Below are positions 5,821 through 23,194 of a DNA stretch of 47,876 nucleotides, one piece after another. The position numbers and the translations under genes were made by a program. Numbering within the stretch: position 1 is the stretch's first letter; each line of letters opens with the position of its first letter. Origin of the DNA: Nitrospiraceae bacterium (GTDB lineage Bacteria; Nitrospirota; Thermodesulfovibrionia; UBA6902); contig QZIL01000049.1 in NCBI GenBank assembly GCA_003599025.1, positions 1 through 47,876 on the forward strand. Direction: 5' to 3'. The notes below the pieces were generated by a model. It was given only the letters and a program-made list of their open reading frames with translations. It did not search any database and had not been told where the DNA came from.

Positions 5821-5841
5821 GGTGCTGTTCCCTTTCTCTGT

Positions 5842-6420
5842 TTATTCTGCGTTCACACCTTCATTCAGGAGGTTAAGCAGATTAGACCTGTAACGTCCCT
5901 GCTTGTCCCTGAACTCGCCCTTGAAGATGTTTTCAACAGCTGGTGTAAGAGCGGTCTGGACAACATGACACTGCAGACAGTTGAATCTGGAGCCGTCGAG
6001 TTTGCCTCTCAGATACTCACCGGTGGTAAGGTTTATAAGATGGGATGAGGGAATAGGGGTAGCGCCGCTGAATACCGCTTCTTCAGGCATATGGCACCCC
6101 ATGCAGATATTGTCCCGCTCCAGAGGCAGCATGCCGGTAATGTCGTGCGCGATCAACGGAGGACTGTTTTCAAAGGACCTTTCGAATTTTGTACTCTCAC
6201 CGGGTTCCTTTGTGGTGGTTTCACCATGGACCGGGGTTATGTTGTCCTCAGTGTAGAGAGTTTCATGCCTGAGACCGAGCTCCTCCTCTGTATAGATTTT
6301 ATCCCCTTTTTCTGCCGTGGCCATTGTAGCGGTTTTGGTCTGTGCACAAGAAACAAATAATCCTAGAGAAACAGCGGCTGACAATACAGCTGGAAACCAT
6401 TTAAATCTCTTACCGTTCAT
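5842..6420 (-). CDS. napB: NapB-type diheme cytochrome c, predicted lipoprotein
   Basis: Two c-heme motifs, CMGCH and CLQCH, lie in the order and spacing of NapB, with the NapB hallmark SPPLIAHDI just before the first. NapB passes electrons to NapA in the periplasm. The N-terminus is odd: LGLFVSC (Cys25) is a good lipobox, so this NapB is probably membrane-anchored, whereas classical NapB is soluble. About 60 residues of polar linker separate the lipobox from the heme domain. A strong ribosome binding site (AGGAGGG) precedes the ATG. It lies downstream of napH, separated by 130 bases that include a low-complexity repeat. Confidence 0.88.
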   Translation of the reverse strand: MNGKRFKWFPAVLSAAVSLGLFVSCAQTKTATMATAEKGDKIYTEEELGLRHETLYTEDNITPVHGETTTKEPGESTKFERSFENSPPLIAHDITGMLPLERDNICMGCHMPEEAVFSGATPIPSSHLINLTTGEYLRGKLDGSRFNCLQCHVVQTALTPAVENIFKGEFRDKQGRYRSNLLNLLNEGVNAE

Positions 6421-6463
6421 AAGTTGACCCTCCTTTTTCTATTAATATGGTTGTAGGAAGAAT

Positions 6464-6573
6464 GTAGTAAGTAGCAGGTAGTAAGGGATAAAACATGGAA
6501 CAACCCTGTCTACCGTGCAATTTAATTTCATAATTTCCTTTCCATGACTACTATCTACTGCCTACTGACTGCT
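6464..6573. repeat. AGTAGGCAGTAG-type low-complexity inverted pair
   Basis: The words GTAGTAAGTAGCAGGTAGTAA (near 6464, here given approximately) and, on the other strand, CAGTCAGTAGGCAGTAG (near 6573) form an imperfect inverted pair about 60 bases apart. The right-hand arm overlaps the 3' end of napH: the last codons of NapH (QSVGSR, stop TAG) are read from the repeat. It resembles simple-sequence repeats found between genes elsewhere and could form a long stem in the napH-napB transcript. Confidence 0.55.
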
Positions 6574-7372
6574 TTTTCGCATATATATTACTGAAATTAA
6601 CGGCGTCATCATCACATGCCTCTACGCATCTTCCGCAATTAATGCATTCTCCGGAAAGTACTGCACCGCTCTGACTGCCTACCATGTGGAGGACCTGCTT
6701 TTCCGGGCAGATCTCAATACACTTCATGCACATAGTGCATTTGTCCCTGTCATAGCCGATCCTCAGAAATCCGTACCGTCCGGCGAGTGAATAAAAACCG
6801 CCGAGGGGGCATACATGACCGCAGAAGCCGTTCTTTACTGCGAAAAGGTCGAATAAAAACACAACGAGGACAAATGCCCATCCAAATCCGAAACCATATA
6901 TAATGCCCCTGTGGAGCATTCCAATCGGGCTTATCCATTCAAAGGCCGCAACCCCCAGTGTTACTGATAATGTGATGGACAATCCCGCCACCCAGTAACG
7001 CATGCTTCTGCTGATGTCCCATGATTTCCAGGATGAATCGAGACGGAAATGATTCCGGAGACTACGGGCCGTATCTGTTACCATATTGACCGGGCATACC
7101 CAGCCGCAAAATACCCTGCCGCCAAGAACAGCATAAAAAAGAAAAATTATCAGCGCCCCTGTCAGCGCATCTTTTGCGATTGCGGTGCCTGCTGAAAAGC
7201 TTTGTGCTACAGCAAAGGGATCAGACAACGGGAGAGTGTCAAGCACCTTTGCAGAACTCAGGTTGCCCCTCAGGATTTTCCAGCCGTAGGCATTCCCCGC
7301 GAAGAACAGGAAAAGCACCGCTATTTGTGTCATTCTTCTTGATATGAGATATTTATATTTTCTCATGTCCAT
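6551..7372 (-). CDS. napH: NapH, membrane quinol-oxidising Fe-S protein of nitrate reductase
   Basis: The protein has four to five transmembrane segments and two cytoplasmic CxxxCP motifs, CGWVCPVN and CGHVCPLG, followed by a C-terminal pair of [4Fe-4S] motifs (CTMCMKCIEICP and CINCGRCVEAC). This is NapH, which with NapG takes electrons from quinol toward NapB and NapA when NapC is absent, as here. The frame is open further upstream to an ATG at 7432 overlapping the napG stop, but that extension would translate a palindromic repeat (7381-7408). The family-like start RKYKYLISRRMTQI favours the ATG at 7372 or 7366. Neither start has a clear ribosome binding site. The C-terminal QSVGSR is encoded by another repeat. 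Confidence 0.9.
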   Translation of the reverse strand: MDMRKYKYLISRRMTQIAVLFLFFAGNAYGWKILRGNLSSAKVLDTLPLSDPFAVAQSFSAGTAIAKDALTGALIIFLFYAVLGGRVFCGWVCPVNMVTDTARSLRNHFRLDSSWKSWDISRSMRYWVAGLSITLSVTLGVAAFEWISPIGMLHRGIIYGFGFGWAFVLVVFLFDLFAVKNGFCGHVCPLGGFYSLAGRYGFLRIGYDRDKCTMCMKCIEICPEKQVLHMVGSQSGAVLSGECINCGRCVEACDDDAVNFSNIYAKKQSVGSR

Positions 7373-7380
7373 GGCATGTT

Positions 7381-7408
7381 GTAGGGGCGTATTGCAATAC
7401 GCCCCTAC
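7381..7408. repeat. GTAGGGGCG palindrome at the napG-napH junction
   Basis: A perfect 28-base palindrome has arms GTAGGGGCG and CGCCCCTAC around a self-complementary core (TATTGCAATA). It belongs to the same family as 8218-8246 and 40917-40944, which share the outer nine bases but differ in the core. It lies immediately upstream of the preferred napH start and would form a strong hairpin in the nap mRNA. Confidence 0.9.
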
Positions 7409-7415
7409 GAATTCA

Positions 7416-8204
7416 TCAAAACACCTCTTCATTTAAATAATCGACGGCCTTTTTATCACTCCTCGGTGTCTCGGTAATGACTTTTTCCGGAACGTCCTTC
7501 AATCGCTCTTCATCCCGTTCCTCCCACCCCTTCACATAACGCTCGCTTGCTTCTCCCATGGCCAGCGCCACTGGCAATACGAATATGGATGCCTTCTTTG
7601 TAACACAAGCCTTTTCACATATGCCGCAGCCGGTACATGCATTGCTGTGGACTACAGGTGCGAGCATGGCGTGTTTGCCGGTGCGGACGTTTCTAGTGTG
7701 TTCAACAGTTATGGCACTGTCAATCAAGGGACAGGCGCGGTAGCAGGCGTCGCACTGAATACCTGAGTAGGCAATGCATGTTTCCCTGTCTATTACCGCA
7801 AGCCCCATTCTCGCAAGACTGATATTGAATATCAGCTCTCCGTCTTTATCTTTATCGCTTACCAGGGCCTTGTCAAGGGACCCTGTCGGACATGCCGGCA
7901 CGCACGGGATGTCTTTACACATACGGCAGGGGGTTGTCCTCGGAATGTAAAACGGGGTGCCGATGGGCCTGCCGTCACCCGGCTGGCTGAGTTTCAGTGA
8001 ATCATAGGGACAAGCCTCAACACACATTCCGCATTTTATACAGGAAGCTATGAACTGTTTTTCAGGGACTGCTCCCGGCGGTCTTAATATCAGAGGCGCT
8101 GACCTGCCTTCTTCAATAAATCCGGCCCAGACCAGTCCGCCAGCTGTGGCCAGCCCCAGGCTCTTGATCGTCTTTAATAGAAAATCTCTTCTTTCCGGCA
8201 TCAT
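7416..8204 (-). CDS. napG: NapG, periplasmic Fe-S electron transfer protein
   Basis: The product carries four ferredoxin-type cysteine clusters: CIKCGMCVEACP, CRMCKDIPCVPACP, CIAYSGIQCDACYRACP and CTGCGICEKAC. A twin-arginine signal begins at ERRDFLLKTIKSLGL. These features identify NapG, which forms with NapH a quinol dehydrogenase feeding NapA through NapB. I place the start at the ATG at 8204 (an ATGATG pair) because AGGAC lies upstream. An earlier in-frame ATG at 8234 would translate half of a palindromic repeat (MKPAPTDRTS) and push the Tat motif inward. The stop lies 16 bases beyond the alternative napH start, so the two genes are tightly linked. Confidence 0.92.
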   Translation of the reverse strand: MMPERRDFLLKTIKSLGLATAGGLVWAGFIEEGRSAPLILRPPGAVPEKQFIASCIKCGMCVEACPYDSLKLSQPGDGRPIGTPFYIPRTTPCRMCKDIPCVPACPTGSLDKALVSDKDKDGELIFNISLARMGLAVIDRETCIAYSGIQCDACYRACPLIDSAITVEHTRNVRTGKHAMLAPVVHSNACTGCGICEKACVTKKASIFVLPVALAMGEASERYVKGWEERDEERLKDVPEKVITETPRSDKKAVDYLNEEVF

Positions 8205-8217
8205 GCTTGTCCTGTCC

Positions 8218-8246
8218 GTAGGGGCGGGTTTCAAACCCGCCCCTAC
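8218..8246. repeat. GTAGGGGCG palindrome at the napA-napG junction
   Basis: The arms GTAGGGGCGGGTTT and AAACCCGCCCCTAC pair around a single central base. It shares its outer nine bases with the palindromes at 7381-7408 and 40917-40944. It occupies nearly all of the short napA-napG gap, just after the napA stop. Confidence 0.9.
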
Positions 8247-8250
8247 ATTC

Positions 8251-11022
8251 TCACGCCTTATATAGCTTCACAGCGCATTTTTTAAAATCCGTCTCCTTTG
8301 ATAGTGGACAGGTTGCGTCAAGGGTGACTTTGTTAATAAGAACACGCTCGTCAAACCAGGGAACGAAGATCATTCCCCTTGGAGGATTGTTCCTCCCCCT
8401 CGTGTCCACCCTTGCCTTTACTTTGCCCCGCCTTGATTCTATCCATATAAGCTGGTTGTCCCTGAATCCGTTTGAAGATGCATCATTTGGGTGCATAAAA
8501 CAGAGGGCCTCAGGAGCGGCGCGATATAATTCCGGAACGCGCATGGTCATTGTTCCACTGTGCCAGTGTTCAAGGACCCTTCCGGTGCTGAGCCAGAACG
8601 GGTACTCTGCATTTGGCACCTCGGCAGGCTCGGCGTAGTGCCTGAGGAATATCTTTGCCTTATTGGGCAGACTGACTTTCTCACTCCCTTTGGGTCCGAA
8701 GAGGTCCCCCTTCGGGATTTCTTTAAGGGCCTTGCCGTAAAAGGCGAACTTGCCGTTATTGCTTTTTCTGGCGTAGGGATCGTAATCTGCGTTGAATCTC
8801 CAGGCAGTTTCCTTTCCATCTACTACCGGCCATTTCAGACCCCTGACTTTATGGTATGTGTCAAAGTCCGCCAGGTCATGTCCGTTGCCTATGCCGAATT
8901 TTCTGTATTCCTCCCAGAGGTACTTTTGAATGAAAAAGCCGTAGCCCTTGAATCCTTCAACGTCTCTCTTGTCGCCCCCGGCTTCCGAATTCATAAACCC
9001 TGTTCCAACAGGGTCTGGCCAGGCAAAGGACTTTGCCTCTTTATTTGCATACAGGACATCAAACAGTGTATCTGTGTCTTTGTAACCCATTGCCCTTGCT
9101 TTGTCCATTACATCAGGGAGTGTCACTTCGTTATCGATCTTATGGGACTTCCAGACTTCCGCCAATGTAAATCTCTTTGAGAACTCGACAGTCTGCCATG
9201 TATCGGACATCGCATTTCCGACCGGGGTGACCTGCTGCCTCCAGTGCTGTGTCCTGCGTTCGGCATTGCCGTATGCGCCCCATTTTTCAAAGATCATTGC
9301 TGTGGGAAGGATCAGGTCAGCTACTTTAGCGGAAATGCCTGGATATACCTCGGACACTACGATGAAATTGTCCATTTCCCTGGCAGCATTGATCCAGTGG
9401 TTCATATTGGCCGTATTCTGCCAGGGGTTGTTCACCTGTACCCAGGTCCATTTGACCTTGCCGTCCTCCAGGTCTCTCATGATTTTCGTGTAGTGTGAAC
9501 CTGCCACTGGATTGAGGGTTCCTTCAGGCAGTTTCCAGAGTTTTTCCGATATTTCCCTGTGCTTGGGGTTATCAACTACCATGTCAGAAGGCAGTCTGTG
9601 AGCGAATGTACCCACTTCCCTCGCCGTACCACAGGCGCTCGGCTGGCCGGTCAGGCTGAAGGGACTGTTGCCAGGCTCGGCGATTTTTCCGAGGAGCAGA
9701 TGCACCGTGTATATCTGCTCATTGACCCAGGAACCCCTGACATGCTGGTTAAAACCCATGGTCCAGAAGCTTGATACCTTCCTGTCCTTTGCAGCATAGT
9801 AATCAACAAGCTTGACGAGCTTCTCTTTAAAACCTGAAAGAGACTCATCAGGGTCGCCTTTGGCAAGAGAGGCCACAAAATCGAGTGTATACGGCTCAAG
9901 ACCCTTTTTAAAATCTTCAAAACTTATGGCCCAGTGTTTGACAGGTGTTTTCGCGTTTTTCATTTCGAGCGTTGAGCCTGCCTTTATTCCGAGAGAACTC
10001 CATGCCTGTGCTTCATCTTCTGTGACTGTCTTTGATGCTTCACGTGATGCAGTATCCAGTTCGCTGGCTCTGTATTTGGAATGATTGATTTCCGGCCTCA
10101 TTCCATATCCGATGTCTATCGGTCCTGTAGCGAATACACAATATTTATCAACGAAATCCTGGTCGATAGACTCAGGCCGGTTGTATACGATTTCTCTGGC
10201 TATATAATTAAGGAGGGCAAGGTCGGAATTGGGTTTTATTACGATTTCCATGTCCGCAATATTTGAGCACCTGTTGGAGAAGGTGGTGATGTTTATGAGT
10301 TTTACCCAGTCAGGTCTGCTCAGTTTTCTGTCTGTGACCTTTGACCACAGTACAGGATGCATCTCTGACATATTGGCACCCCAGAGTACTATTGAATCGG
10401 CATGATGCATGTCGTCGTAGTTGCCTGCAGGTTCGTCAATGCCGAATGTCTGGATAAAACCTACAACAGCACTTGCCATACAGTGACGGGCATTAGGGTC
10501 TATGTTGTTGCTTCTGAATCCCCCCTTGATCAGTTTGACAGCTGCAACTCCCTCCATGATTGTATACTGTCCGGACCCGAAGATCGAAACACCCGTGGGG
10601 CCCAGTTCATTGTAATACTTCTTGAACTGACTGGACATTACATCAAAGGCTTTTTCCCAGGTAACGGGTTTAAATTTACCTTTTTTATCAAATTCTCCAG
10701 CTTCATTAACGCGTAGTAAAGGATCGGTCAGTCTGTCTGCGCCGTACATGATCTTTGCATTGAAGTATCCCTTTATACAGTTCAGTCCCATATTAACAGG
10801 TGCGAGCGGGTCGCCCTTGACAGCGACTATCATATCGTTCCTGGTTGCAACCATAATGCCGCATCCGGTCCCGCAGAACCTGCAGACACACTTGTCCCAT
10901 CGCCAGCCGACCTCTGTTTCTTTTACGACTGCCATTAATTCATCCGGTACAGCCATGCCTATTGCGGTTGCAGCACTGACTGCTGCCGTGGTCTTCAGAA
11001 AGTCCCGTCTTGTAACCTTCAT
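8251..11022 (-). CDS. napA: NapA, periplasmic nitrate reductase catalytic subunit
   Basis: The 923-residue protein starts with a twin-arginine signal ([17 protein letters not shown]). A [4Fe-4S] site follows at Cys47, Cys50, Cys54 and Cys82 (CRFCGTGC...CIKG), matching the CxxCxxxC-x27-C spacing of Nap-type enzymes. The likely molybdenum ligand is Cys181 in [10 protein letters not shown]. Later motifs, such as [13 protein letters not shown] and the C-terminal [17 protein letters not shown], fit the bis-MGD-binding domains. It reduces nitrate to nitrite in the periplasm. The length is at the long end for NapA. AAGGAGG precedes the ATG, and it is the first gene of napA-G-H-B-D, divergent from a Crp/Fnr regulator. 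NapC and NapF are not present. Confidence 0.96.
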
Positions 11023-11083: not shown

Positions 11084-11326
11084 GATCGCCAATGCAACCT
11101 CCTGAAATCATATGAATAACTTGCCTGTCATTTTGAGCTGAATGAGTAACTAAGTAATTTAATATCACAATATCGATTCATTTGCAATCAGTTAATAGAT
11201 ATATAAAAAAATAACAGGTTTTTGGGTAAATGTGATGTTAATGATTGTAAAGAAACAGTAAATTATGGTCCTTGCGCTATTACTGTCTCCAGGTGTATTG
11301 ACATAGTCTTATCGATTAATTACGCT

Positions 11327-12028
11327 ATGTTAGTGAAAAGATCCAATGCAGACATACTGGACGATCTCCGCGTATTGCCGTGCCTGTCGGGTTTAAAAAA
11401 GGATGAACTGTCTTCAATAGGGGGGCAGGCACATATCAGGTCCTTTGTAAAAAATGAAATCCTCTTCAGAGAGTCAGAACAGGCCGATTTTTTGTTTGTG
11501 GTAAAAAAAGGGCAGGTAAAACTGTTTAAAACCTCTTCTGAGGGGAGAGAACTGTCGATCAAGATAATGGGGCGGCATGAATATTTTTGCTGCGCACCCC
11601 TCTATCATGACGGTAAATATCCAGTAAGCGCCTCTGCAAAAGAAAATTCTTCGGTCGTAGTCATACCATCAAAAGAGTTCAAGGATGTAATTGGTTTCAG
11701 TACAAATGAAATAGGATTGAAAATCATTAAAGGTCTGTGCAACAGGATTAAATATCTCTCAGGTCTCGTAGAAAATCTTTCATTCAGGGACGTTGAGCAG
11801 AGGATCCTTATGGCCCTTTTGCGGCTGTCAGAAGAGAAGGCACCCATGGACAACATAGTCTCTCTCTCAATATCCCATAACGATATAGCGTCTATAACAG
11901 GGACTGTGAGAGAGGTTGTTTCGAGAATTATGTCGAGGCTGAAGAAGGAGGGGACCATTGTTGACAGCAACGTAAGAGGTTTTAAGATAAACAAGGACAG
12001 GCTCAAAAATATCATCAGCAAAAAATAG
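11327..12028 (+). CDS. Crp/Fnr family transcriptional regulator
   Basis: From the ATG at 11327 the product is 233 residues, the usual length for the family. It has an N-terminal cyclic-nucleotide-binding-like beta-roll (LRVLPCLSGLKKDEL to about residue 120), a long dimerisation helix (GLKIIKGLCNRIKYLSGLVENLS) and a C-terminal winged helix with the recognition helix in HNDIASITGTVREVVSRIMSRLKKEG. It contains YFCCAPLYHDG in the sensor domain, a Cys pair unlike cAMP sites, suggesting a redox, heme or Fe-S effector. The frame is open to a TTG at 11222, which would add 35 residues with four Cys (at 4, 9, 18 and 25); neither start has a good ribosome binding site. Divergent from napA, it probably regulates nitrate respiration. 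Confidence 0.85.
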   Translation: MLVKRSNADILDDLRVLPCLSGLKKDELSSIGGQAHIRSFVKNEILFRESEQADFLFVVKKGQVKLFKTSSEGRELSIKIMGRHEYFCCAPLYHDGKYPVSASAKENSSVVVIPSKEFKDVIGFSTNEIGLKIIKGLCNRIKYLSGLVENLSFRDVEQRILMALLRLSEEKAPMDNIVSLSISHNDIASITGTVREVVSRIMSRLKKEGTIVDSNVRGFKINKDRLKNIISKK

Positions 12029-12522: not shown

Positions 12523-13275
12523 TCAATTCAGCCTGTAAACAACCGGTATCACTATCTCTGCCCTGAGCGGCGGTTCAGGGAACGGGAGGACTTTCTTTAC
12601 GGTCTCCACTGCACTTCTGTCCAGTATACCAAATCCCGAGCTCTCTATGATTTTTATGTCCTCTGCATTGCCGTTTTCACAGATGACAAAGGAGATAGTC
12701 ACTTTTCCCTGCCACCCCATTTTTCTCGCTGCCTGCGGGTAAGAAAGGTTTTTCAAGATTCGGTCTCTTATATATGTAAAATGCTCTCTTAAATATCCTG
12801 CCTTTGCGCCTTCAGCAGTATCAGCGACGTCCCTGCCGGATACAGTGCCGGCATCCTGTTTAATACCCTCTGATGAATCATTTGTTCTCCCTTCCAACGT
12901 GTCAACCACGGCTTCTCTATCATTCATATCCGGTGACACTTCAGAAAGTACCGGCTGGTGACTGTCAGATACTGGAACTGCAGGCACATCATCTGATGAA
13001 GGCCGGACCGGTCTTTGTTCAGCTTTTTTTATTCCGGACTCTCTGCTGATGACTTTTGCCTTCCGGCTATCTGCAGACGGCTTCTGTTTTTTGGCTGACG
13101 CCTTCCGTGGCGTATCACTGTTTGCCCCTGCCTTTGACTCCTGAACGCCTGCCAGACTGAAATCGAGCACAAGAATTTTATTTGCAGGCATGTAACGGCT
13201 GAGGACAAGGACGGCCGCAAATATCAGAGCATGAACAGCAACTGAGAATACCGACGCCCTGAATTGTGTGTTCAT
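12523..13275 (-). CDS. tonB: TonB energy transducer
   Basis: The 250-residue protein has one N-terminal membrane anchor (VFSVAVHALIFAAVLVLSRYM), a long polar periplasmic spacer (about residues 40-160) rich in Ser, Asp, Glu, Lys and Ala, and a C-terminal TonB domain (YIRDRILKNLSYPQAARKMG, GKVTISFVI, IIESSGFGILDRSAVETVKK, then PFPEPP). TonB transmits the energy of the ExbB/ExbD proton channel to outer-membrane receptors; a receptor is encoded in the same block at 15863-17935. The spacer is less proline-rich than in E. coli TonB. The start follows the exbD stop by three bases with GAAGGGA as ribosome binding site. Confidence 0.92.
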   Translation of the reverse strand: MNTQFRASVFSVAVHALIFAAVLVLSRYMPANKILVLDFSLAGVQESKAGANSDTPRKASAKKQKPSADSRKAKVISRESGIKKAEQRPVRPSSDDVPAVPVSDSHQPVLSEVSPDMNDREAVVDTLEGRTNDSSEGIKQDAGTVSGRDVADTAEGAKAGYLREHFTYIRDRILKNLSYPQAARKMGWQGKVTISFVICENGNAEDIKIIESSGFGILDRSAVETVKKVLPFPEPPLRAEIVIPVVYRLN

Positions 13276-13278
13276 TAA

Positions 13279-13662
13279 TCAATCCCTTCTCTGTTCTGTC
13301 TGAAGACTGACCTTTTTGAAACCGAGGTTTTTCACCGTATCCAGCACATCCACAAACATCTGGAGCGCAATGTCCCGGTCGGCCCTTATGAGCATAGGGA
13401 CTGACCTGTCGAGAAAACAGATGGAATTTTTCAGGCCGTCAAGGGTCACCTGTTTTGTATTAAGGTAAAGATTCCCCTTTTTGTCTATCTCTATGGTCTG
13501 GGACTTAAGTGCATCATTGTGGCTCCTCGAAGCGGCAGGCAGCTCGACCGGCACGACCCCTGTTGCAATAAACGTGGACGTGGTGAGCACTATGGTCAAG
13601 AGCACGAGCATGACATCCACCAGCGGGATGACATTCATGTAATCAAATTCTTTCTCTTCCAT
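13279..13662 (-). CDS. exbD: ExbD/TolR biopolymer transport protein
   Basis: The 127-residue protein has the ExbD layout: a short cytoplasmic N-terminus, one membrane segment with the essential Asp ([17 protein letters not shown]), and a periplasmic domain ending in [30 protein letters not shown]. With ExbB it forms the proton-driven motor for TonB. Its start overlaps the exbB stop by about 20 bases, so the two are translationally linked. Confidence 0.93.
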
Positions 13663-14077
13663 TCTCTATCTCCCATCGCATGATCAGGACCTTTACCTTT
13701 CTCAGGAGAAAGTTGTAAAGCGCAACTGACGGGATCGCCACGATAAGCCCTACAGCAGTCGCCTTCAGTGCAAGCGCAAGCCCTGACATTATCTTTCCTG
13801 TGTCCATGAACCCTTCATTCCCCATCGTATAGAATGTGAGCATTATTCCGAGCACAGTCCCGAGCAGTCCTATGTATGGCGCATTGCTGCCGATGGTCGC
13901 AATTATGTGCAGCTTTTTTGTGAGCTCAAGCTCCAGCGACTTTTTATCAGCATATTCAATGAGGTTGATGCGCCTGTAAATAAGATGTCTCTCAACAGCT
14001 ATTGAAAGGGCGATCATGCTCATGATGAGCAGAAGCCCTATCACTCCGTAGTCGATCGCAGCGCTAAGCCATTCCAT
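13643..14077 (-). CDS. exbB: ExbB/TolQ-type proton channel protein
   Basis: From the ATG at 14077 (AAGGGGAAAAG upstream) the product is 144 residues, a short ExbB. Three membrane segments are visible: residues 5-27, and a pair around [21 protein letters not shown] and [23 protein letters not shown]. The GLLGTV and ALKATAVGL motifs are typical of ExbB/TolQ/MotA. A longer reading from 14116 adds 13 polar residues without a ribosome binding site. It works with ExbD and TonB encoded directly downstream. Confidence 0.92.
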
Positions 14078-14261
14078 TGTCTTTTCCCCTTGTCCTGATT
14101 TTTTGTATAGCGGCAAGCAGCAGGACGCTCACACCAACGCCTGCGCATCCGAAGCATGCTGTGCACGCTCCGCCTGAACAGTTTGAAACCGAGGTCAGTC
14201 CGGACAGGCCGGTGGCTGCGCCGATTGCAGAGCAGAGTATCTTATTTTTTAAATCTGCCAT
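14064..14261 (-). CDS. Cys-rich membrane miniprotein, unknown
   Basis: The 65-residue product has two hydrophobic stretches separated by a glycine- and cysteine-rich motif, [20 protein letters not shown] (five Cys in the whole protein, including one near residue 10). AAGGGAGG lies upstream of the ATG. The gene overlaps the polyferredoxin gene upstream by 20 bases and the exbB gene downstream by 14 bases, so it is almost surely translated within this operon. The cysteine run could bind a metal or an Fe-S cluster in or near the membrane. No family is recognised. Confidence 0.7.
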
Positions 14262-15042
14262 AGTTTATCGCCTCCCTTGTACAGACTTTTTCACACTCCC
14301 TGCAGGGCATGCAGGAGAGCTGATCAATCTTTGCCTTATCACTGATCCCGATTGCCCAGGTCGGGCAGGCCTTCGCGCATATACCGCACGCATTGCACTT
14401 TGCTTCATTCACGGTCACCCTTTTGCCGAATCTGAGGCCGAGCCTGTTGGAGACAGCGTCAAGCGCACCTATTGGGCATAGGAAATTGCAGTATGCCCTG
14501 CCGCCCTTTGCAAGGAACCCGAGAACGACCACCAGACCGAGATTTATCAGCCCTGCTGTTCGGAAGAAATAAGACATGTCCGCAGGTGAAAACGCAGCGC
14601 CGAAGATCCTTGGCACTGCTGCAAAGTTGCAGTAATTGCAGCAGAGACTGCCGAGCCCTATAGCAGGGGCGATCAGGTATACGGACAAATATCCGTACCT
14701 GACCGGCGATGACGGGACCCCCGAATAATTGATCTTCAGGAAATCCGGAACGATTTTACTTCCCACTTCCATGCTGCCGCCGATAGGGCAGAGGTGGCTG
14801 CACCAGTATCTGCCGAGAAAAAACGTGCTTATCAATACACCGAAGACAAGGGCAACCCCGAGGTAGCTCCTTGCAAAACCGATGAGGAATTCCCCGCCTG
14901 TCATCCCCTTTCTCCATGAAAAAAACATCCTCGGGCACCATGTGCCGCAGAAATTGGTGTCCTGAGAAAATTGAAAGAGCAGCGACAGCGGCGGCATCAG
15001 CAGGAGTATGCCCCCGATGATTATCCAGTATCTGTATTTCAT
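14242..15042 (-). CDS. NapH-like membrane polyferredoxin
   Basis: The protein has four to five membrane segments and paired CxxxCP motifs (CSHLCPIG and CNFLCPIG), with additional NFCGTWCPRMF and SLCCNYCNF loops, followed by two C-terminal [4Fe-4S] motifs (CNACGICAKACP and CMPCRECEKVC). This architecture is shared by NapH, NosR C-termini and CcoG-like proteins, which move electrons across or along the inner membrane. It is not napH of the nap operon (6551-7372). The ATG at 15042 has AAGGGA upstream; an earlier ATG at 15078 overlaps the preceding gene. In this operon it could reduce a metal such as Cu(II) or Fe(III) during TonB-linked uptake, which is inference. Confidence 0.85.
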   Translation of the reverse strand: MKYRYWIIIGGILLLMPPLSLLFQFSQDTNFCGTWCPRMFFSWRKGMTGGEFLIGFARSYLGVALVFGVLISTFFLGRYWCSHLCPIGGSMEVGSKIVPDFLKINYSGVPSSPVRYGYLSVYLIAPAIGLGSLCCNYCNFAAVPRIFGAAFSPADMSYFFRTAGLINLGLVVVLGFLAKGGRAYCNFLCPIGALDAVSNRLGLRFGKRVTVNEAKCNACGICAKACPTWAIGISDKAKIDQLSCMPCRECEKVCTREAINYGRFKK

Positions 15043-15055
15043 AAAAAATCCCTTA

Positions 15056-15685
15056 TCAGTGATGGTGTCCGCCTGCATCGTGCGTGTCCTCCTTTGTCTT
15101 GAATATCACGGGGACGTTCAGGACAGAATTGCCTGTGATTGTGTCGTAAAAGGCCAGTGTGTATTTGCCTCTTACACCCACGTTCTGATACCTGCCTGGG
15201 GCCTGCCTGAAGGTTTCAAGGCAATCTTCAGAACAGAAAAAATAGTCCTTTCCCTCATGTGTGTGTTTTGAGAATTCATTTGTATAAGACATACCGCAGA
15301 CAGGGTCCAGAACCGGCGGCTTCATCAGCACCCATAACGCTATCCTGTCGCTGGGCTGAAGATCGTAGAGGACATCATCTCTCAGTTCAGGCTTTCTGTG
15401 CAGCTTCAGGTCCACCACCGGCGCTGACAGATGGATTTTGTAATCAAGCTTCGGTTCTCCCTCAAGAACGACCCTGGCATTTCCTTTATAGGGTGGAATG
15501 ACGGTAGCGGTTGCTATGAGTGAATATCCTGTTTCACCACTCTGAAGTGCCGCCGGATGTCTCGCCTTGCCTCCTTTGCTGGTGATCAGGCCGATGGAGT
15601 GGGCCGAGTCCCCCCATCTGTGCCCGGCTGCAGTAAGCGAGACTGCAACAGTCAGGATGAAGAATATTGTCTTTTTTATGTTCAC
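15056..15685 (-). CDS. Exported YHS-domain protein with His-rich tail
   Basis: The start is a GTG at 15685 behind AAAGGAGA. A signal peptide (NIKKTIFFILTVAVSLTAAG) leads to a beta-rich domain with FixH-like flavour (residues ~50-120), then a YHS domain: DPVCGMSY...KHTHEGKDYFFCSEDCLETF, a metal-binding motif seen in heavy-metal proteins and copper ATPases. The C-terminus ends DTHDAGGHHHH-like, another metal-binding feature. It is the first gene of the unit that continues with the polyferredoxin, Cys-rich miniprotein, ExbB, ExbD, TonB and DUF2318 genes. A role as periplasmic metal-binding protein is likely; copper or iron cannot be decided. Confidence 0.8.
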   Translation of the reverse strand: MNIKKTIFFILTVAVSLTAAGHRWGDSAHSIGLITSKGGKARHPAALQSGETGYSLIATATVIPPYKGNARVVLEGEPKLDYKIHLSAPVVDLKLHRKPELRDDVLYDLQPSDRIALWVLMKPPVLDPVCGMSYTNEFSKHTHEGKDYFFCSEDCLETFRQAPGRYQNVGVRGKYTLAFYDTITGNSVLNVPVIFKTKEDTHDAGGHHH

Positions 15686-15742
15686 GTTGTCTCCTTTAAT
15701 GTTTATCTGGGAAGGCAGCACATGGCATCTTCGCTCATTCTC

Positions 15743-15760
15743 GTCCCGATATATCGGGAC
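15743..15760. repeat. Perfect 18-base palindrome upstream of the YHS gene
   Basis: The arms GTCCCGATA and TATCGGGAC are perfectly complementary. The site lies 58 bases upstream of the YHS gene start, in the 177-base gap after the TonB-receptor gene. A second 14-base palindrome (GGCCTTTAAAGGCC, 15847-15860) adjoins the receptor stop codon. The first could be an operator or a small repetitive palindrome; the second may be a termination hairpin without a T-run. Confidence 0.5.
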
Positions 15761-15862
15761 TCCGAGGTTTTTGCCTCCTGATTTTAAATATAAGTTATGC
15801 GGACTATCTGCAAAAAAATCCGCTCAAATACTATGTGCTGCCTTCCGGCCTTTAAAGGCCTT

Positions 15863-17935
15863 CTAAAATTTATATCCTGCCTTTGCCATCCAGCTCAGCG
15901 GGGCCGCCGGTCTGTATTTCGCCGCACCCCCCGATTCCTTTGTCACCTCCATTGCATACCCTTTATCAAAAATATTGTAGACATCAAATGTAAGGTCCAG
16001 TCTGCTGTTCTCATATCCGACAAGGGCATTCGTAATGAATTTGTAGCCTTCATATTTTTCCGTGTTCGCATTGTCTATGTAGTAGCTCCCCCATGTACTG
16101 GTGTCAACTTTTGCTTTGAATCCCTTCGCATGTTTATATGATGCGTAGATGGTGTACTGATGTTTGGGTATGTAGGGGAACCTGTTGCCGTCTCTATCAT
16201 AATTGACGCCTTTAACAGGCTCTGTGAAGTCTATAAACTTGAAGTTGCTGTACGAATATGACCCGCCCAGAAACAGACCTTTCAGCACCTGCAGTTTCCC
16301 TGAAAGCTCAGCGCCCTTCTTCAAGGATTTTCCTGCATTGCTGTAGGAAGAGATATTTCCCGGCTCTGTTATCTGGACAATCTCGTCTTTCACTTTCATG
16401 TAAAAAACAGCGAGGTCCAGACTGTGTCCTCCTTCAAACCGGCTTTTAACACCTGCTTCGTAGTTGTATGTTGCTGAAGGGTCCAGGTCCGTATTGACAC
16501 TCAGCTCTGACGACTGGGGGGTCTGAAATCCTGTAGAAGCGTTGCCGTAGAGGTTGGACACTTCTGTGAGCTTATAGAGTATCCCGAGTCTGGGACTTAT
16601 GTTGCTGAAAGTCTGAATTTCATCGATGGTCTCTGATTTTGTTGCATACTTGCCGGTGCTGTAGTTGTATTCCTTGAACTTTTCAGTATGGATATCGAAC
16701 CCCACCTCATCATATCTCAAACCAATATCGATGATCCATTTTTCAGACGGGGAGATGGATTCCTGAACGAACACACCCCACTTGGTTGTAGTGTCGTCGC
16801 CTTTCTCAGCAAGGTCGCCCTTCTCGTCTGAAAGGGTATATGAAATCCTGCCACCGCCTCCTGTAACGTATTCCCCGTATGTATATTTGTCGCCTTCTGC
16901 CTTGTCTATCTGACCGGTAAGACCTGTTGTAAGGGTCCCCTCCATTCCTGCGATTTTGTGTTTTATATCAGCCTGAATGTCCGTGCCGTAAACACTCGCC
17001 CCTCCTTCATTTATGAGACCTGTGACCGGATGATAATGGTCCCATTTGCTGAAGTAGACCGCAGGCTTGAGTTTGACCCGGCCGAGCTCGGTCTCCATTT
17101 TCAGGTTTGTGAAAAAAACCTCGCTGTATCTGCCGCTGTGCCTCCAGGTGTCTGATGTCAGCTGTGTTATGTCGTGTTCAAACTGCGCTTCGGTAAGCGT
17201 GCCGGGAAGCTGAATGTCGGCCTTTGTAAAATTAACGGTGGCCTCAACTGATGTATTGTCGTTGAACATGTGACCGATTTTGAGATTGCCCTGGTCAGTC
17301 TCGAATTCATTCCACTCTCTCCAGGAGTCAGTGGAGCGCCGGCTACCTGATACCGTGAAATATGTACTGCCTATGTGATTTCCGTAAAGGAAGTTATACA
17401 TCTGTGTGTCATTGCTGCCGTAGCCGAGTTTTATGCTTTTTACTTCTTCAAAGGGGCTCCCGGTTATTATATTAATGACCCCGCCTGCTGCATTGGCCCC
17501 GTATAGCGTTGAATTAGGGCCTTTCACAATGTCGATCCTGTCTACGAGCTGTGTGTCGACAAAGTCAAGCCTTGACAGCCCGTCGGGATCGGTTATCGGT
17601 ACTCCGTCAAGCAGGACCATTATCTCCCGCACCCCGTATCTCGCCTTCAGTCCGGCCCCCCTTATGATCAATCGTGCGTCATATCCTCCGTTTCTTGATT
17701 CTGCCTGGACTCCTGACAGTCCTGTAAGGGCCTCTTTTATACTGAACATCCTTGTGTTTTTGATGTCTTCTTTTGTGACAGCGCTTACTGCTGCAGGTAT
17801 TTCCGCAGTGGACCTCTCTGTCCTTGTAGCGGTCACTACTACTTCCTCGAGCTCTTCCGGTTTCACCGCAGTTTCTGCAAATACATAGCTTACGGACAAG
17901 AGTGCGCTCAAGAATACTAAAAAGATATATCGCAT
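15863..17935 (-). CDS. TonB-dependent outer-membrane receptor
   Basis: The ATG at 17935 is preferred, four bases after AGGAGG; a longer frame to 18028 lacks a ribosome binding site. A signal peptide (MRYIFLVFLSALLSVSYVFA) is followed by a TonB box-like ELEEVVVTATRTE, the plug domain (SIKEALTGLSGVQAESRN...GVREIMVLLDGVPI...IDIVKGPNSTLYGANAAGGVINIIT) and a ~550-residue beta-barrel ending in the C-terminal aromatic (AKAGYKF). The closest visible flavour is BtuB/FepA-like metal-complex receptors. Its substrate is unknown; the neighbouring YHS, DUF2318 and NosL-like genes point to a metal or metallophore. It is transcribed toward the tonB operon but separated from it by 177 bases. Confidence 0.93.
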   Translation of the reverse strand: MRYIFLVFLSALLSVSYVFAETAVKPEELEEVVVTATRTERSTAEIPAAVSAVTKEDIKNTRMFSIKEALTGLSGVQAESRNGGYDARLIIRGAGLKARYGVREIMVLLDGVPITDPDGLSRLDFVDTQLVDRIDIVKGPNSTLYGANAAGGVINIITGSPFEEVKSIKLGYGSNDTQMYNFLYGNHIGSTYFTVSGSRRSTDSWREWNEFETDQGNLKIGHMFNDNTSVEATVNFTKADIQLPGTLTEAQFEHDITQLTSDTWRHSGRYSEVFFTNLKMETELGRVKLKPAVYFSKWDHYHPVTGLINEGGASVYGTDIQADIKHKIAGMEGTLTTGLTGQIDKAEGDKYTYGEYVTGGGGRISYTLSDEKGDLAEKGDDTTTKWGVFVQESISPSEKWIIDIGLRYDEVGFDIHTEKFKEYNYSTGKYATKSETIDEIQTFSNISPRLGILYKLTEVSNLYGNASTGFQTPQSSELSVNTDLDPSATYNYEAGVKSRFEGGHSLDLAVFYMKVKDEIVQITEPGNISSYSNAGKSLKKGAELSGKLQVLKGLFLGGSYSYSNFKFIDFTEPVKGVNYDRDGNRFPYIPKHQYTIYASYKHAKGFKAKVDTSTWGSYYIDNANTEKYEGYKFITNALVGYENSRLDLTFDVYNIFDKGYAMEVTKESGGAAKYRPAAPLSWMAKAGYKF

Positions 17936-17967
17936 CATTCCTCCTGAAACATATTTATAGTAAGTGT

Positions 17968-18060
17968 GATTCCGGGCCGGAATCAGTAATTTTCGAAGCG
18001 GAGTCAATTGCGAAGGGAGGTATGTCAAAAGGTGACAGACCGGAGAGGCGCTTATCGCCT
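17968..18060. promoter_or_regulatory. Three inverted repeats upstream of the TonB receptor
   Basis: A 17-base palindrome with arms GATTCCGG and CCGGAATC lies at 17968-17984. At 18019-18041 arms GGTATGTCA and TGACAGACC (eight of nine pairs) flank five bases. At 18046-18060 arms AGGCG and CGCCT flank five bases. They fill the leader region of the receptor gene. The second has the geometry of a repressor or activator operator; the others may be transcript hairpins. No cobalamin riboswitch signature was found. Confidence 0.4.
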
Positions 18061-18604: not shown

Positions 18605-20260
18605 ATGCAGACGCCTAGACGCTTATTAAGACAGTTCAGGGCCCTCAAGATCAGCCTTATCCTTAAATTTATCATCGGGGTAGCTGTTGTACTGGCTGTT
18701 ACAACCGGGCTGACGATCTATTTCATCAATAAGAACCACAAGAAACTCGTTATAGAGCAGATCGACCAGCAGGCAAGGGCGCTGTTCAGGCAGATCGTCC
18801 TGACGCGAAAATGGATATCCGACCACGGTGGAGTGTTTGTAGAGAGGGTACCGTGGAAAGAGCCGAGTCCCTATCTCATGGAACCGGAGATCGTAGACAC
18901 TCACGGGAAAAAATATGTCAAACAAAGCCCTGCCATGGTAACAAAGGAGCTGTCAAAGTATGCCAGGGAAAAAGGCCTGTACTGGTTCCACATAACGAGT
19001 CTTAAACTTATTAATCCTGAAAACGCACCTGATGAATTTGAAAGGAACGCACTTAAGGAGTTTGAAACAAGGGGGACAAAGGAATCTGCAAAGGTAGAAA
19101 AGATCAATTCATCATATTTCTATCGCTATATCGCCCCGCTTTATGTTGAAGAGACATGTCTCAAATGCCATTCTCATCAGGGATACAAGACAGGAGATGT
19201 GAGGGGTGCCATAAGTGTTACGGTGCCTATGGAATCCGCACTGGTCATGATAAACTCCGGGAGGAGGGACCTTATTATCGCAAGTATTGTAACCATCGGC
19301 ATATTGATGATCGTACTTTTTGTCATGATGAAAGAACTTGTGATAAGGCCTGTCAATGAGTTGAAGACCTCGATTGAGGATTTTTCAAAGGGAAGAAGAT
19401 CCCGGACAGTGGCTGTCAGTACCGGCGACGAACTGGAGGACCTTAGCAATTCCTTTGTAGATATGTCAAAGGCACTGGCAGAGTACCATGAAGACCTTGA
19501 GGACAAGGTGCAGAAGGCCACGAGGGGACTTGAAGAGGCAAACGTGAAACTGGTTGAGCTGAACGAAAAGAAATCTGACTTTATCGCCAAGATCTCCCAT
19601 GAACTGAGGACCCCCATGACCTCGATCAAAGGCGCCATGGACTATATATCTGCCAAGATGGACAGGGACAGCAAGGGAAACGGGGAACTTGCGGAATTCC
19701 TGGATGTTATTAAAAACAACGCCGACAGGCTTATTCGTCTGGTAAACGATACTCTTGACCTTGAGCGTATTGAATCAGGAATGTTTGACCTTCATTACAG
19801 TCCTGTGGATATTCTGTCTCTTCTTAAGGATGTGGCTATCAGCTTTCAGTCGATTGCCGGTGAAAAAAATATTACTTTCAGGTTAACGGCAGCCCCCGAT
19901 GTGCTGATTGATGCTGATGAAGACAGGATCAGGCAGGTGTTGATAAATCTCGTATCAAATGCACTAAAGTACGGTCCTGACAATTCAGAAATTGAGATGT
20001 CTGTTAAAGAGACAGACGGTTATGTAACAGTTTATATTAAGGATGAAGGCCCGGGGATACCTGATGACATACGGGGGAAAATCTTCGACAAGTTCTATAC
20101 AATAGGGAAGCGGCACGGGACCGGGCTTGGACTTGCCATATGTAAAGGCATAATCGAAGCCCATAAGGGGGAGATAAATGTAACAAGCGAACCTGGCGCT
20201 GGAAATAACGCGTTTTATTTTACACTACCGAAGAGGAAAGAGAGAAAGGAGTCTGATTGA
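18605..20260 (+). CDS. Sensor histidine kinase with a periplasmic DUF3365 heme domain
   Basis: The 551-residue protein has a first membrane segment (about 20-42), a periplasmic DUF3365 domain (about 50-215) with a c-heme motif CLKCH (Cys185 to His189), a second membrane segment (222-242), HAMP (243-295), a coiled-coil, HisKA with the phospho-acceptor His332 (FIAKISHELRTPMTSIKGA) and HATPase (NLVSNALKYGP, DEGPGIP, GTGLGLAICKGI). It should sense a redox state or a gas such as NO through the heme and phosphorylate the response regulator encoded in overlap with its stop. The free DUF3365 protein at 829-1563 shares the heme domain. The heme-sensing role is inference from the domain order; the architecture is directly visible. 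Confidence 0.92.
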   Translation: MQTPRRLLRQFRALKISLILKFIIGVAVVLAVTTGLTIYFINKNHKKLVIEQIDQQARALFRQIVLTRKWISDHGGVFVERVPWKEPSPYLMEPEIVDTHGKKYVKQSPAMVTKELSKYAREKGLYWFHITSLKLINPENAPDEFERNALKEFETRGTKESAKVEKINSSYFYRYIAPLYVEETCLKCHSHQGYKTGDVRGAISVTVPMESALVMINSGRRDLIIASIVTIGILMIVLFVMMKELVIRPVNELKTSIEDFSKGRRSRTVAVSTGDELEDLSNSFVDMSKALAEYHEDLEDKVQKATRGLEEANVKLVELNEKKSDFIAKISHELRTPMTSIKGAMDYISAKMDRDSKGNGELAEFLDVIKNNADRLIRLVNDTLDLERIESGMFDLHYSPVDILSLLKDVAISFQSIAGEKNITFRLTAAPDVLIDADEDRIRQVLINLVSNALKYGPDNSEIEMSVKETDGYVTVYIKDEGPGIPDDIRGKIFDKFYTIGKRHGTGLGLAICKGIIEAHKGEINVTSEPGAGNNAFYFTLPKRKERKESD

Positions 20261-20940
20261 ATAACAGGATTCTTGCTGTAGATGATGACAAAGACATACT
20301 GAAAGTTGTCAAGGCCAACCTCGAACTCCACGGTTATGAGGTTGATACCGCTGAAAACTGGGAAGCTGCACAGGAGAAGCTGTCAGTCCGGCCCCCTGAG
20401 CTTGTTCTTCTCGACGTGATGCTGCCCGACGGGGACGGCATGGAGATATGCCGCGACCTGAGAAAGGACTTTCCTGAAATGCCGATCATTATGCTGACAG
20501 CCAGAGACAAGGTCTCTGATAAAGTCTTTGGTCTCGAAAGCGGGGCCGATGACTATGTGGTCAAGCCTTTTGAGACACTTGAACTCGTTGCGAGGATCAA
20601 GGCGTGTCTCAGAAGAGCAGGCACTCCCGTTGTCAGGGAAAATGCGGTGATCGGGAACCTTAAGGTCGATTTTAAAAAACGGATAGTCACTGTTTCAGGG
20701 AAACAGGTCGATCTGACTCCCAGGGAGTACAGTCTGTTGTGTTTTTTTGTCGACCACAGGGGTGAAGCGGTCAGCAGGGAGCAGATCAGGAAGAACATAT
20801 GGAAAGATTCCAAGATCTATTCATGGAGCAGGGTCATAGACGTCCACATTCAGCACCTCAGGCAGAAAATAGAAAAAGACCCGTCAAACCCTCAATATAT
20901 CATCACAGTGCCAGGGGCAGGGTACAGGTTTATGGATTAA
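20257..20940 (+). CDS. OmpR/PhoB-family response regulator
   Basis: The 227-residue product has a receiver domain with the acidic pair in AVDDDKD, the phospho-acceptor Asp in LLDVMLPDGDG and the conserved Lys in VVKPFE, followed by a C-terminal winged helix (DLTPREYSLLCFFVDHRGEAVSREQI, then RVIDVHIQHLRQKIEKDP and PGAGYRFMD). The start is a TTG overlapping the kinase stop, with AAAGGAG upstream, so the two are a coupled two-component system. OmpR-type regulators bind tandem direct repeats spaced about 10-11 bases, and exactly such arrays lie at 21034-21103 and 21487-21524 before the next two genes. Confidence 0.94.
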   Translation: MNNRILAVDDDKDILKVVKANLELHGYEVDTAENWEAAQEKLSVRPPELVLLDVMLPDGDGMEICRDLRKDFPEMPIIMLTARDKVSDKVFGLESGADDYVVKPFETLELVARIKACLRRAGTPVVRENAVIGNLKVDFKKRIVTVSGKQVDLTPREYSLLCFFVDHRGEAVSREQIRKNIWKDSKIYSWSRVIDVHIQHLRQKIEKDPSNPQYIITVPGAGYRFMD

Positions 20941-21033: not shown

Positions 21034-21127
21034 TTAATTTCTCATTAATTTTTCATTCAGCAAAATTAACATTTTCTTTACACACATTAACAACATATTT
21101 ACCCTGAAACCGGTTAAACAGTATGTA
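21034..21127 (+). promoter_or_regulatory. Tandem TTWACA direct repeats and promoter before the NapD-like gene
   Basis: Hexamers TTAACA (21066), TTTACA (21077), TTAACA (21087) and TTTACC (21098) follow at 11, 10 and 11 bases. Two looser copies, TTAATT (21034 and 21045), continue the 11-base phase upstream. The last hexamer can act as the -35 box for TATGTA (21122-21127) 18 bases later. The same core with identical spacing stands before the Hao-like gene. This is the pattern of an OmpR-type binding array, and the regulator is encoded just upstream. Confidence 0.7.
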
Positions 21128-21206
21128 TCGGAATTTTGCGATTAATTGAGGGTGCCGGATTGAGGGGCAATCACTCACTTATCAATTAAGATCTAATGAG
21201 GTAATC

Positions 21207-21437
21207 ATGGTTGTTGCCAGCGGATATATAGAAGTTAACGGGAGACATAATGTCGGGAAAATATTGAATGAACTGAAAATAAGAAGTATCGGCATTGATG
21301 ACATTTCAGAGGATCGGATAATGTTTCTTATGGAAAGAGAAAACATAGATGTCATAAAAAGTGAAATCGGTTTACTTAAAAGCATTGGAGATGTGAGGAA
21401 CGTGCACCTCACTTATTACAGTAATGAGGAGCGTTAA
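21207..21437 (+). CDS. NapD-like small protein
   Basis: The 76-residue product (GAGGT upstream of the ATG) follows the NapD ferredoxin-like pattern: an initial strand MVVASGYIEV, a helix NVGKILNELKI, a central strand RIMFLMERE, a helix and a final strand SIGDVRNVHLTYYS. It is shorter and diverged from the NapD at 5533-5820. NapD proteins bind twin-arginine signal peptides, but the neighbouring Hao-like cytochrome has a Sec signal, so the partner may be elsewhere, for example NapA. It has its own promoter with the TTWACA array and is thus probably co-regulated with the Hao-like gene. Family assignment is likely, not certain. Confidence 0.65.
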   Translation: MVVASGYIEVNGRHNVGKILNELKIRSIGIDDISEDRIMFLMERENIDVIKSEIGLLKSIGDVRNVHLTYYSNEER

Positions 21438-21486
21438 GAAGTCAATCTGAACCGGGACAGACAATGAAATAGGTAAGCGGACAAAA

Positions 21487-21548
21487 TTAACTTTTTCTTA
21501 ACAGATGTTAACAGCACCTTTACAGGAAAAGCAGTTACTCTTTTTATA
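21487..21548 (+). promoter_or_regulatory. Tandem TTWACA direct repeats and promoter before the Hao-like gene
   Basis: TTAACT (21487), TTAACA (21498), TTAACA (21508) and TTTACA (21519) repeat at 11, 10 and 11 bases, the same register as the array at 21066-21103, and both arrays are preceded by CAAAA. An 18-base spacer separates the last hexamer from TTTATA (21543-21548), a plausible -10 box, as in the other promoter. The leader to the start at 21731 is then about 175 bases long; no further structure was recognised in it. Confidence 0.7.
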
Positions 21549-21730: not shown

Positions 21731-23194
21731 ATGAAGAAAATTATATCACTGGCTGTAATAGCTTTTTTCCTGGTCATCGGGACCAGCGCATTTGCTTTAA
21801 CAAAAGTCAACTTGCCAAAGGAACTCTCAAAGGAGAGCAAAGACTGTATAAGCTGCCACAAGGAGTCAACGGTCAACATCTACCAGCAGTGGGGCTACAG
21901 TAAACACTTCCGCGCGAACATAGGCTGTTATGAATGTCATGAGGCACAGAAAGGTGAACCGGACGCCTTTGAACACGAAGGTAAATTTATTTCGATCATA
22001 GTGTCACCTAAAGACTGCTCAAAATGTCACGAGAAGGAAGTTGATGAATTTGTAAATTCCCATCACGCTAAGGCAGGCAGGATCATGGGGTCACTTGACA
22101 ATACGCTTGCTGAAGTAGTTGAGGGCAACAAGGGCATGAAGACCGCAGGGTTTCCTGATGGCGTTTCCGCAGCTGCGGTCAACGGCTGCTGGCAATGCCA
22201 CGGTTCCATTGTGAAGGTCAACAAGGACGGGACCCTGGACCCTGCAACCTGGCCGAATACCGGCATGGGAAGGGTAAATCCTGATGGGACGGAGGGCAGC
22301 TGCTCAGCGTGTCATCAGCGCCACGAATTTTCGGTTGCACAGGCGCGCCAGCCTGAAAACTGCGGCAAATGCCACATGGGGCCTGACCATCCGCAGATAG
22401 AAATCTATAATGAATCCAAGCACGGGATCAATTACTATGCTAACAAGGACAAGATGAACCTCAATTCGGCCAAGTGGATCGTTGGTGAAGACTATTCAGC
22501 TGCACCGACCTGTGCAACATGTCATATGTCCGCGACCAGCAATATGCCTGTTTCTCACAATATAGGTCTTCGTATCAAATGGAACAACCGCCCTCCGCAG
22601 CTGAAGCTTGCTCATGAGTCTGACGTAAAGTGGGGCCTGGCTTCGGGATCTGTTACCGGAGACATGCGTAAAGCGAATATGGTCAAGGTATGCGTTGCAT
22701 GCCACTCCGAGAGCTTTGTGGACGCGTTCTATATTCAGTATGAAGCCCAGCTACAATTGTATAGTGAGAAGTGGGCCAAGCCAGGAGAGAAACTGTTCAA
22801 GAAGGCGACAGAGGTCCTGAAGGCGGTGAAGGGTAAAGAGTATGCCGAGTTTGCCCAGAAGATAGATTATACGTGGTTCGAGCTGTGGCACCATGAAGGC
22901 CGCCGGGTACGTCATGCTGCTTCAATGCAGGCGCCGGATTATACCCAGTGGCACGGCAACTATGATCTGGCAAGGAACTGGTATGGTGAGTATGTCCCTG
23001 AACTGAGAGAAGTTATTGAAACGGGAATGCACAGCAGCAACAGCGATGCAAAGAAACTTGCAGGTGAACTCGAAAAAATGCTGGCAGAAGTCATCAACGA
23101 TGAAAACCATAAATGGTCAATCGGGCATGAAGATCCTGCTGACAAGGCAGAACGTGACAAACGCCGCAAGGAGTTCCTGGACCGTTATAAATAG
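21731..23194 (+). CDS. hao: Octaheme Hao-family cytochrome c (hydroxylamine oxidoreductase-like)
   Basis: The 487-residue protein has a Sec signal peptide and eight CxxCH motifs starting at Cys39, 66, 96, 153, 191, 211, 261 and 321. Their spacing, and the C-terminal stretch ELWHHEGRRVRHAASMQAPDYTQWHGNYDLARNWY, are those of the Hao family. Members either oxidise hydroxylamine (P460 heme cross-linked to Tyr) or, in some anaerobes, reduce nitrite or hydroxylamine. With Nap and no NrfA or ammonia monooxygenase in view, a reductive role forming ammonium is more likely. Heme 4 (Cys153) would be the catalytic one by analogy. Whether the cross-linking Tyr is conserved I cannot tell without an alignment. 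No dedicated quinol dehydrogenase gene adjoins it. AAGGAGG precedes the ATG. Confidence 0.9.
   Translation: MKKIISLAVIAFFLVIGTSAFALTKVNLPKELSKESKDCISCHKESTVNIYQQWGYSKHFRANIGCYECHEAQKGEPDAFEHEGKFISIIVSPKDCSKCHEKEVDEFVNSHHAKAGRIMGSLDNTLAEVVEGNKGMKTAGFPDGVSAAAVNGCWQCHGSIVKVNKDGTLDPATWPNTGMGRVNPDGTEGSCSACHQRHEFSVAQARQPENCGKCHMGPDHPQIEIYNESKHGINYYANKDKMNLNSAKWIVGEDYSAAPTCATCHMSATSNMPVSHNIGLRIKWNNRPPQLKLAHESDVKWGLASGSVTGDMRKANMVKVCVACHSESFVDAFYIQYEAQLQLYSEKWAKPGEKLFKKATEVLKAVKGKEYAEFAQKIDYTWFELWHHEGRRVRHAASMQAPDYTQWHGNYDLARNWYGEYVPELREVIETGMHSSNSDAKKLAGELEKMLAEVINDENHKWSIGHEDPADKAERDKRRKEFLDRYK

Follow-up and report, generated by a model that had tools for sequence, protein, structure and literature searches.

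Pho boxes of Escherichia coli replace the -35 and lie some 10 bp upstream of the -10, and the core sites of Bacillus subtilis PhoP are tetrads of TTAACA-like repeats. PhoB recognizes 11-nt half-sites arranged as direct repeats, binding them head to tail and contacting sigma-70 (PMC4415409). The cyanobacterial regulator RpaB reads the HLR1 element, direct repeats of (G/T)TTACA(T/A)(T/A) that lie 2 nt apart (PMC9241938). NarX-NarL, NarQ-NarP, Nss and NrfS-NrfR have been described as coordinating nap and nrf in response to nitrate, nitrite or NO, with NarL and NarP reading heptamer inverted repeats (PMC12285233), while Nss proteins are of the Crp/Fnr type (PMC11539149). In Nautilia profundicola, whose reverse-HURM pathway combines Nap with a Hao-like octahaem cytochrome, nitrate induces napA and hao together; the paper describing this does not mention regulation under any word with the stem 'regulat' (PMC3701875). 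According to a 2026 preprint, the Tll0287/sCache_heme family was recently found to bind NO: a signalling-fused member without an axial cysteine, from P. azotoformans, binds NO tightly and releases it slowly, and a stand-alone member shows redox-type behaviour (PMC12889525).

The window analyzed here, a 47,876-nt stretch of DNA from an uncultured Nitrospirota bacterium taken at its full length, contains three arrays of four TTWACA hexamers at 11-10-11 spacing, a kinase/regulator pair and genes for nitrate reduction:

Array 1, 21066-21103 (+): TTAACA-TTTACA-TTAACA-TTTACC; 141 bp from array start to the ATG of the NapD-like gene; conserved in relatives
Array 2, 21487-21524 (+): TTAACT-TTAACA-TTAACA-TTTACA; 244 bp from array start to the hao ATG; conserved in relatives
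Array 3, 11225-11262 (-): four hexamers at 11-10-11; 240 bp from array start to the napA ATG
Histidine kinase, 18605-20260 (+): periplasmic Tll0287-like c-haem Cache domain (CLKCH), HAMP, HisKA and HATPase by Pfam
OmpR/PhoB-type response regulator, 20257-20940 (+): gene overlapping that of the kinase by 4 bases; recognition helix YSWSRVIDVHIQHLRQKIE
NapD-like small gene, putative first target, 21207-21437 (+): 76 aa; weak NapD profile match (E 0.001, probability 21%)
Hao-like octahaem cytochrome c, putative second target, 21731-23194 (+): 8 CXXCH; nearest solved structure 4qo5
napA, periplasmic nitrate reductase, putative third target, 8251-11022 (-): NCBIfam match above cut-off
napG, napH, napB-like gene and napD, 5533-8234 (-): downstream of napA, probably one operon

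As in the PhoB and PhoP systems, direct repeats here appear to be paired with an OmpR/PhoB-type regulator. Unlike PhoB, the window system has no array at PstS loci and its candidate targets are nitrate and nitrite reductases, and unlike PhoB and PhoP sites, its arrays have a fixed 11-10-11 spacing and conserved bases between the hexamers. The regulator scores below the curated PhoB cut-off (TIGR02154, 212.5 bits against 296.2), and its best-scoring NCBIfam model, that for RpaB (NF045944, 214.8 bits), also misses its cut-off of 330. RpaB/HLR1 likewise combines an OmpR-type regulator with direct repeats, but has two repeats rather than four, another spacing and other targets. The only output domain of our regulator is Trans_reg_C, which sets it apart from NarL/NarP, since NarL has a LuxR-type output domain, and as an OmpR-type protein the product of 20257-20940 is not an Nss regulator. 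Coordinate control of nap and nrf is nevertheless what the proposed regulon would share with the Nar, Nss and NrfS-NrfR systems; none of the nap/nrf regulators covered in PMC12285233 (for the Nss type, PMC11539149) is PhoB-type with a c-haem Cache kinase. Like reverse-HURM (NapABGH, Hao-like octahaem cytochrome, CycB and Hcp), the window encodes Nap and Hao, the two components that the comparison covers; unlike in Nautilia, the same array in Nitrospirota relatives also stands before nrfHA or a multihaem cytochrome c552 gene. The kinase resembles sCache_heme (Tll0287/DUF3365) kinases in its CXXCH c-haem Cache domain, membrane anchor, HAMP and HisKA (PMC12889525). The word 'operon' does not occur in the text of the preprint, and we noted no target genes in the sections consulted; the window system would give such a kinase a proposed regulon and operator.

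Arrays in the window and in related genomes

An earlier note on this DNA, made from the sequence alone, had described arrays in two promoters. Both are real, each with TTWACA hexamers at 11-10-11, a single mismatch to the four-hexamer pattern and CAAAA directly 5' of the array, but a third array before napA, on the minus strand, had been overlooked. Allowing up to 3 mismatches, we found 3 sites in the whole window (0.00 expected from 100 dinucleotide shuffles) and 4 in the 3.13-Mb genome, where the reversed pattern gave 0. The fourth genomic site, on contig C79, has perfect hexamers without the conserved inter-hexamer bases or -10, is missed by the refined pattern described below and is probably fortuitous. 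A continuation of array 1 upstream by degenerate copies, also suggested from the sequence, is not supported: hexamer scores there are at background level and conservation ends 3-4 bases before the first hexamer.

The repeats are conserved in relatives, contrary to what the earlier note had named as grounds for refuting its proposal. We compared 11-10-11 with the 26 other spacings obtainable from steps of 10-12 (27 in all) across 115 sequences, comprising the kinase matches in 101 relatives, the Hao matches in named genomes, the window and the first four loci. At 23/24 or better, 11-10-11 yielded 52 sites, duplicates included, and any other spacing at most 1. The 41 distinct sites give a consensus of roughly TTTACAnnTTCTTTACAnAnATTAACAkCACATTTACA, in which bases between the hexamers are conserved as well. 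A refined pattern finds about 75 sites in the 101 genomes, where the reversed control gives 2, and 29 in 296 genomes drawn across the phylum, where that control gives 0; the genomes compared are mostly metagenome-assembled, incomplete and related to one another, and so are not independent.

Genes preceded by the array in relatives are napA, the NapD-like gene and hao; other families of the class have it before nrfHA (L115, L123 and L287) and before a multihaem cytochrome c552-family gene, identified by profile at L116, L117 and L193 and by N-terminal sequence similarity at L281-L285. Part of the sites precede genes without an evident link to nitrogen. Further arrays of the same geometry, with a GTGnTA-type flank, occur at L175-L187 and L134 (genomes G014, G016, G018, G023, G027, G029 and G011), before genes that encode, among others, a cupredoxin-like protein, a CBS-domain protein and small secreted proteins, some of which have ECDPCDYNIDYG-like repeats. 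Such sites before small secreted, cupredoxin-like and CBS-domain genes in a few genera may extend the regulon or may belong to another regulator. A variant array, roughly TTTACAnAAAATTAACAnTTATTAACnnCAAATTTAC and in most cases followed by TAGTAggat, stands before the cytochrome c552-family gene at L116-L121 (families f9 and f12), in genomes that mostly carry a kinase about 50% identical to that of the window.

Kinase, regulator and haem sensor

The earlier note had placed an OmpR-type regulator and a haem-domain kinase just upstream of arrays 1 and 2, and the Pfam domains agree: the regulator matches PF00072 and PF00486 (receiver and Trans_reg_C winged helix) above cut-offs, and the kinase sensor matches PF11845 with 87.2 bits against a cut-off of 24.1. 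Across 28 orthologues, the recognition helix region of the regulator (residues 188-206) is on average 99% conserved, compared with 76% over residues 130-227, and the recognition helices of OmpR-type paralogues in the same genomes differ from it.

At the family level, the array is present in 26 of 27 genomes with the kinase and in 1 of 10 without it (Fisher p = 8e-7, a value that relatedness makes optimistic). The 26 include G014, where only the 3' end of the regulator is present at a contig edge, and G036, where the kinase is partial; in the one kinase-bearing genome without an array, G007, the kinase lies at a contig edge. The array is present in each of the 10 hao neighbourhoods that hold both kinase and regulator. 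In the remaining 70, it is found only at L037, where the regulator is cut by the contig end, and at L038, L042 and L056, whose genomes (G035, G008 and G009, matched via the site sequence) carry the kinase at another place, apart from a weak match at L106. That match (L106:3233-3270, -, Desulfobacteraceae) is a weaker TTACA repeat array adjoining (3') or overlapping an OmpR-type output-domain match of 40% identity; being weak and without the consensus, it was rejected.

Two genomes are informative for having no kinase or regulator orthologue that we could find. G006 keeps napA (78%) and hao (76%), which are divergent, and lacks the array, which by gene content makes it a natural knock-out of kinase, regulator and array together. 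G011 has an array before napA at 21/24, its first hexamer decayed, and one other site; these two sites fit a recent loss of the pair, but could mean that another protein reads the array. At the threshold used, no array appeared in several more distant genomes whose kinase is 45-52% identical. Taken together, the conserved targets, the co-occurrence with the pair, the joint loss in G006 and the invariant recognition helix support the proposal of the earlier note that the direct repeats are OmpR/PhoB-type sites defining a small regulon. We put the probability that the arrays are operators of the kinase/response-regulator pair at 18605-20940 at about 0.8.

A sequence search of the sensor against the PDB gave no match. 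Fold comparison of an AlphaFold model built with 18 sequences (mean pLDDT 84) gave Tll0287 (5b82) as the best PDB match, at E 1.9e-06; the TM-scores are modest (0.44/0.59) because the model includes membrane helices. The haem sensors GSU0935 and GSU0582 were also near the top of the fold matches. CXXCH is present in 30 of 30 kinase orthologues, of which 26 have no cysteine ahead of it and the other 4 have one, in the first membrane helix; the periplasmic part of the kinase has the CXXCH cysteines only. In architecture, a HAMP and HisKA fusion without an axial cysteine, the window kinase fits the NO-sensing sCache_heme sub-type, whose other marks are tight NO binding and the lack of a stable oxy-complex. 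Since the NO-binding member is likewise signalling-fused and without an axial cysteine, NO is the favoured signal for this kinase by analogy, though unproven.

Two other gene groups in the window deserve mention. The sensor family is represented a second time at 829-1563 (+), adjoining a NosL gene (171-662), by a gene whose Tll0287-like c-haem product stands alone and has no cysteines outside CXXCH. Between nap and the kinase, 12523-18028 (-) encodes TonB, ExbB, ExbD, a YHS-domain protein, a NapH-like polyferredoxin and a TonB-dependent receptor, which may together form a unit for metal uptake.

Promoter layout and rival explanations

Of 77 sites, 75% have a TAnnnT hexamer that begins 11 bp downstream of the final TTWACA. 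The -10 had previously been placed 18 bp after the last hexamer, where TAnnnT occurs in 5% of the 77 sites; this placement was rejected, the 18-bp box not being the conserved one, and all remaining offsets between 0 and 35 bp gave 6% or less. Because part of the 77-site set was collected with a pattern fixing T50 and A51, the fair test of these two bases is the set of 41 sites found by hexamers alone, in which T50 reaches 100% and A51 98%. In the 41 distinct sites, T55 stands at 78%, and the array is followed by a conserved CTGTTA and then by a conserved A at position 62. Read from the alignment, the conserved bases after the array are an extended -10 pattern (TGnTAnnnT) whose hexamer starts 11 bp past the last TTWACA, and the A at position 62 coincides with the expected +1. 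The corresponding positions in the window are:

Conserved -10 position of array 1, 21115-21120 (+): TAAACA, a weak match; predicted start near 21127; placed by alignment column
Conserved -10 position of array 2, 21536-21541 (+): TACTCT; predicted start near 21548
Conserved -10 of array 3, 11208-11213 (-): TATTTT with extended TG; predicted start near 11201

At arrays 1 and 2 the -10 matches the consensus poorly. The distance of 11 bp from array to -10, without a -35, would by analogy be the layout of PhoB promoters, and an array upstream of the -10 with no -35 favours activation.

The likeness to PhoB also raises the possibility that the arrays are Pho boxes of PhoB, or sites of another OmpR-type paralogue, and lie next to the pair incidentally. 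The geometry is that of Pho boxes, the genomes encode several more OmpR-type regulators at 35-45% identity, and G011 retains sites without the pair. Against this, none of 30 PstS loci has an array, which led us to reject PhoB boxes at pst loci; the array targets are nitrogen-oxide reductases; and the array tracks this pair, whereas the paralogues, with their different recognition helices, persist in array-free genomes. We therefore consider this explanation improbable. A Crp/Fnr-type gene (11327-12028, +) adjoins napA divergently, and its product, or another nitrogen-oxide regulator, might be the true controller, with the repeats incidental. This is very improbable: the Crp/Fnr family reads palindromes, the conservation of the direct repeats goes far beyond what incidental sequence would show, and the other Nitrospirota hao neighbourhoods examined did not yield the gene, so that we rejected it as the cognate factor even with the precedent of nap and nrf being under Crp/Fnr-type regulators in other bacteria (PMC12285233, PMC11539149). 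The chance that the arrays are fortuitous matches in AT-rich promoter DNA is close to negligible. The hexamers are indeed AT-rich, and contig C79 shows that a perfect match can apparently arise by accident, but shuffles expect none, conservation extends to the inter-hexamer bases, the association with target genes is strict, and the spacing specificity and near-empty reversed-pattern controls in 101 and 296 genomes refute a chance origin in practice.

A different kind of alternative keeps this regulator as the reader of the array and makes it a repressor, or has the sensor respond not to NO but to redox state, oxygen or, indirectly, nitrate or nitrite. We regard it as possible though unlikely. 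Stand-alone members of the sensor family are reported to act as redox proteins (PMC12889525), and the ligand of this kinase is predicted from its family; the kinase, however, is signalling-fused and has the CXXCH cysteines alone in its periplasmic part, like the tight NO binder, and the array position and missing -35 speak for activation. We infer binding by this regulator, activation over repression, and the identity of the signal, all three.

Proposed control of nitrate ammonification

With the pair acting as an activator at its own operators, the c-haem Cache domain in the periplasm would perceive NO, or a related N-oxide or redox signal, and the kinase would phosphorylate the PhoB-type regulator. 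Two head-to-tail regulator dimers would bind the four TTWACA half-sites, at about -61 to -24, replacing the -35 element and recruiting sigma-70 polymerase to the (extended) -10 that starts 11 bp downstream. The result would be expression of napA with the genes that follow it, of the NapD-like gene and of hao, joined in relatives by nrfHA or the multihaem cytochrome c552, giving a nitrate-to-ammonium route under a PhoB-like class II activator.

Systems of this kind are already known; the combination of sensor, operator and regulon appears to be new. The literature searched, an open-access subset in which absence is not proof of novelty, yielded no dedicated regulator of Nitrospirota ammonifiers. 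We think it reasonably probable that the pair is such a dedicated nitrate-ammonification regulator across Thermodesulfovibrionia-type Nitrospirota, with a c-haem Cache NO-sensing kinase, one promoter grammar for nap, hao, nrfHA and multihaem cytochrome c552, and a periplasmic haem that reads by-products of the pathway. The array is specific enough for predicting targets in uncultured genomes, the c-haem Cache kinase gains a candidate gene set, and two or three promoters suffice for a direct test of the NO-sensing proposal. It is the timing of expression of such pathways that decides whether nitrate is retained as ammonium or escapes as gas.
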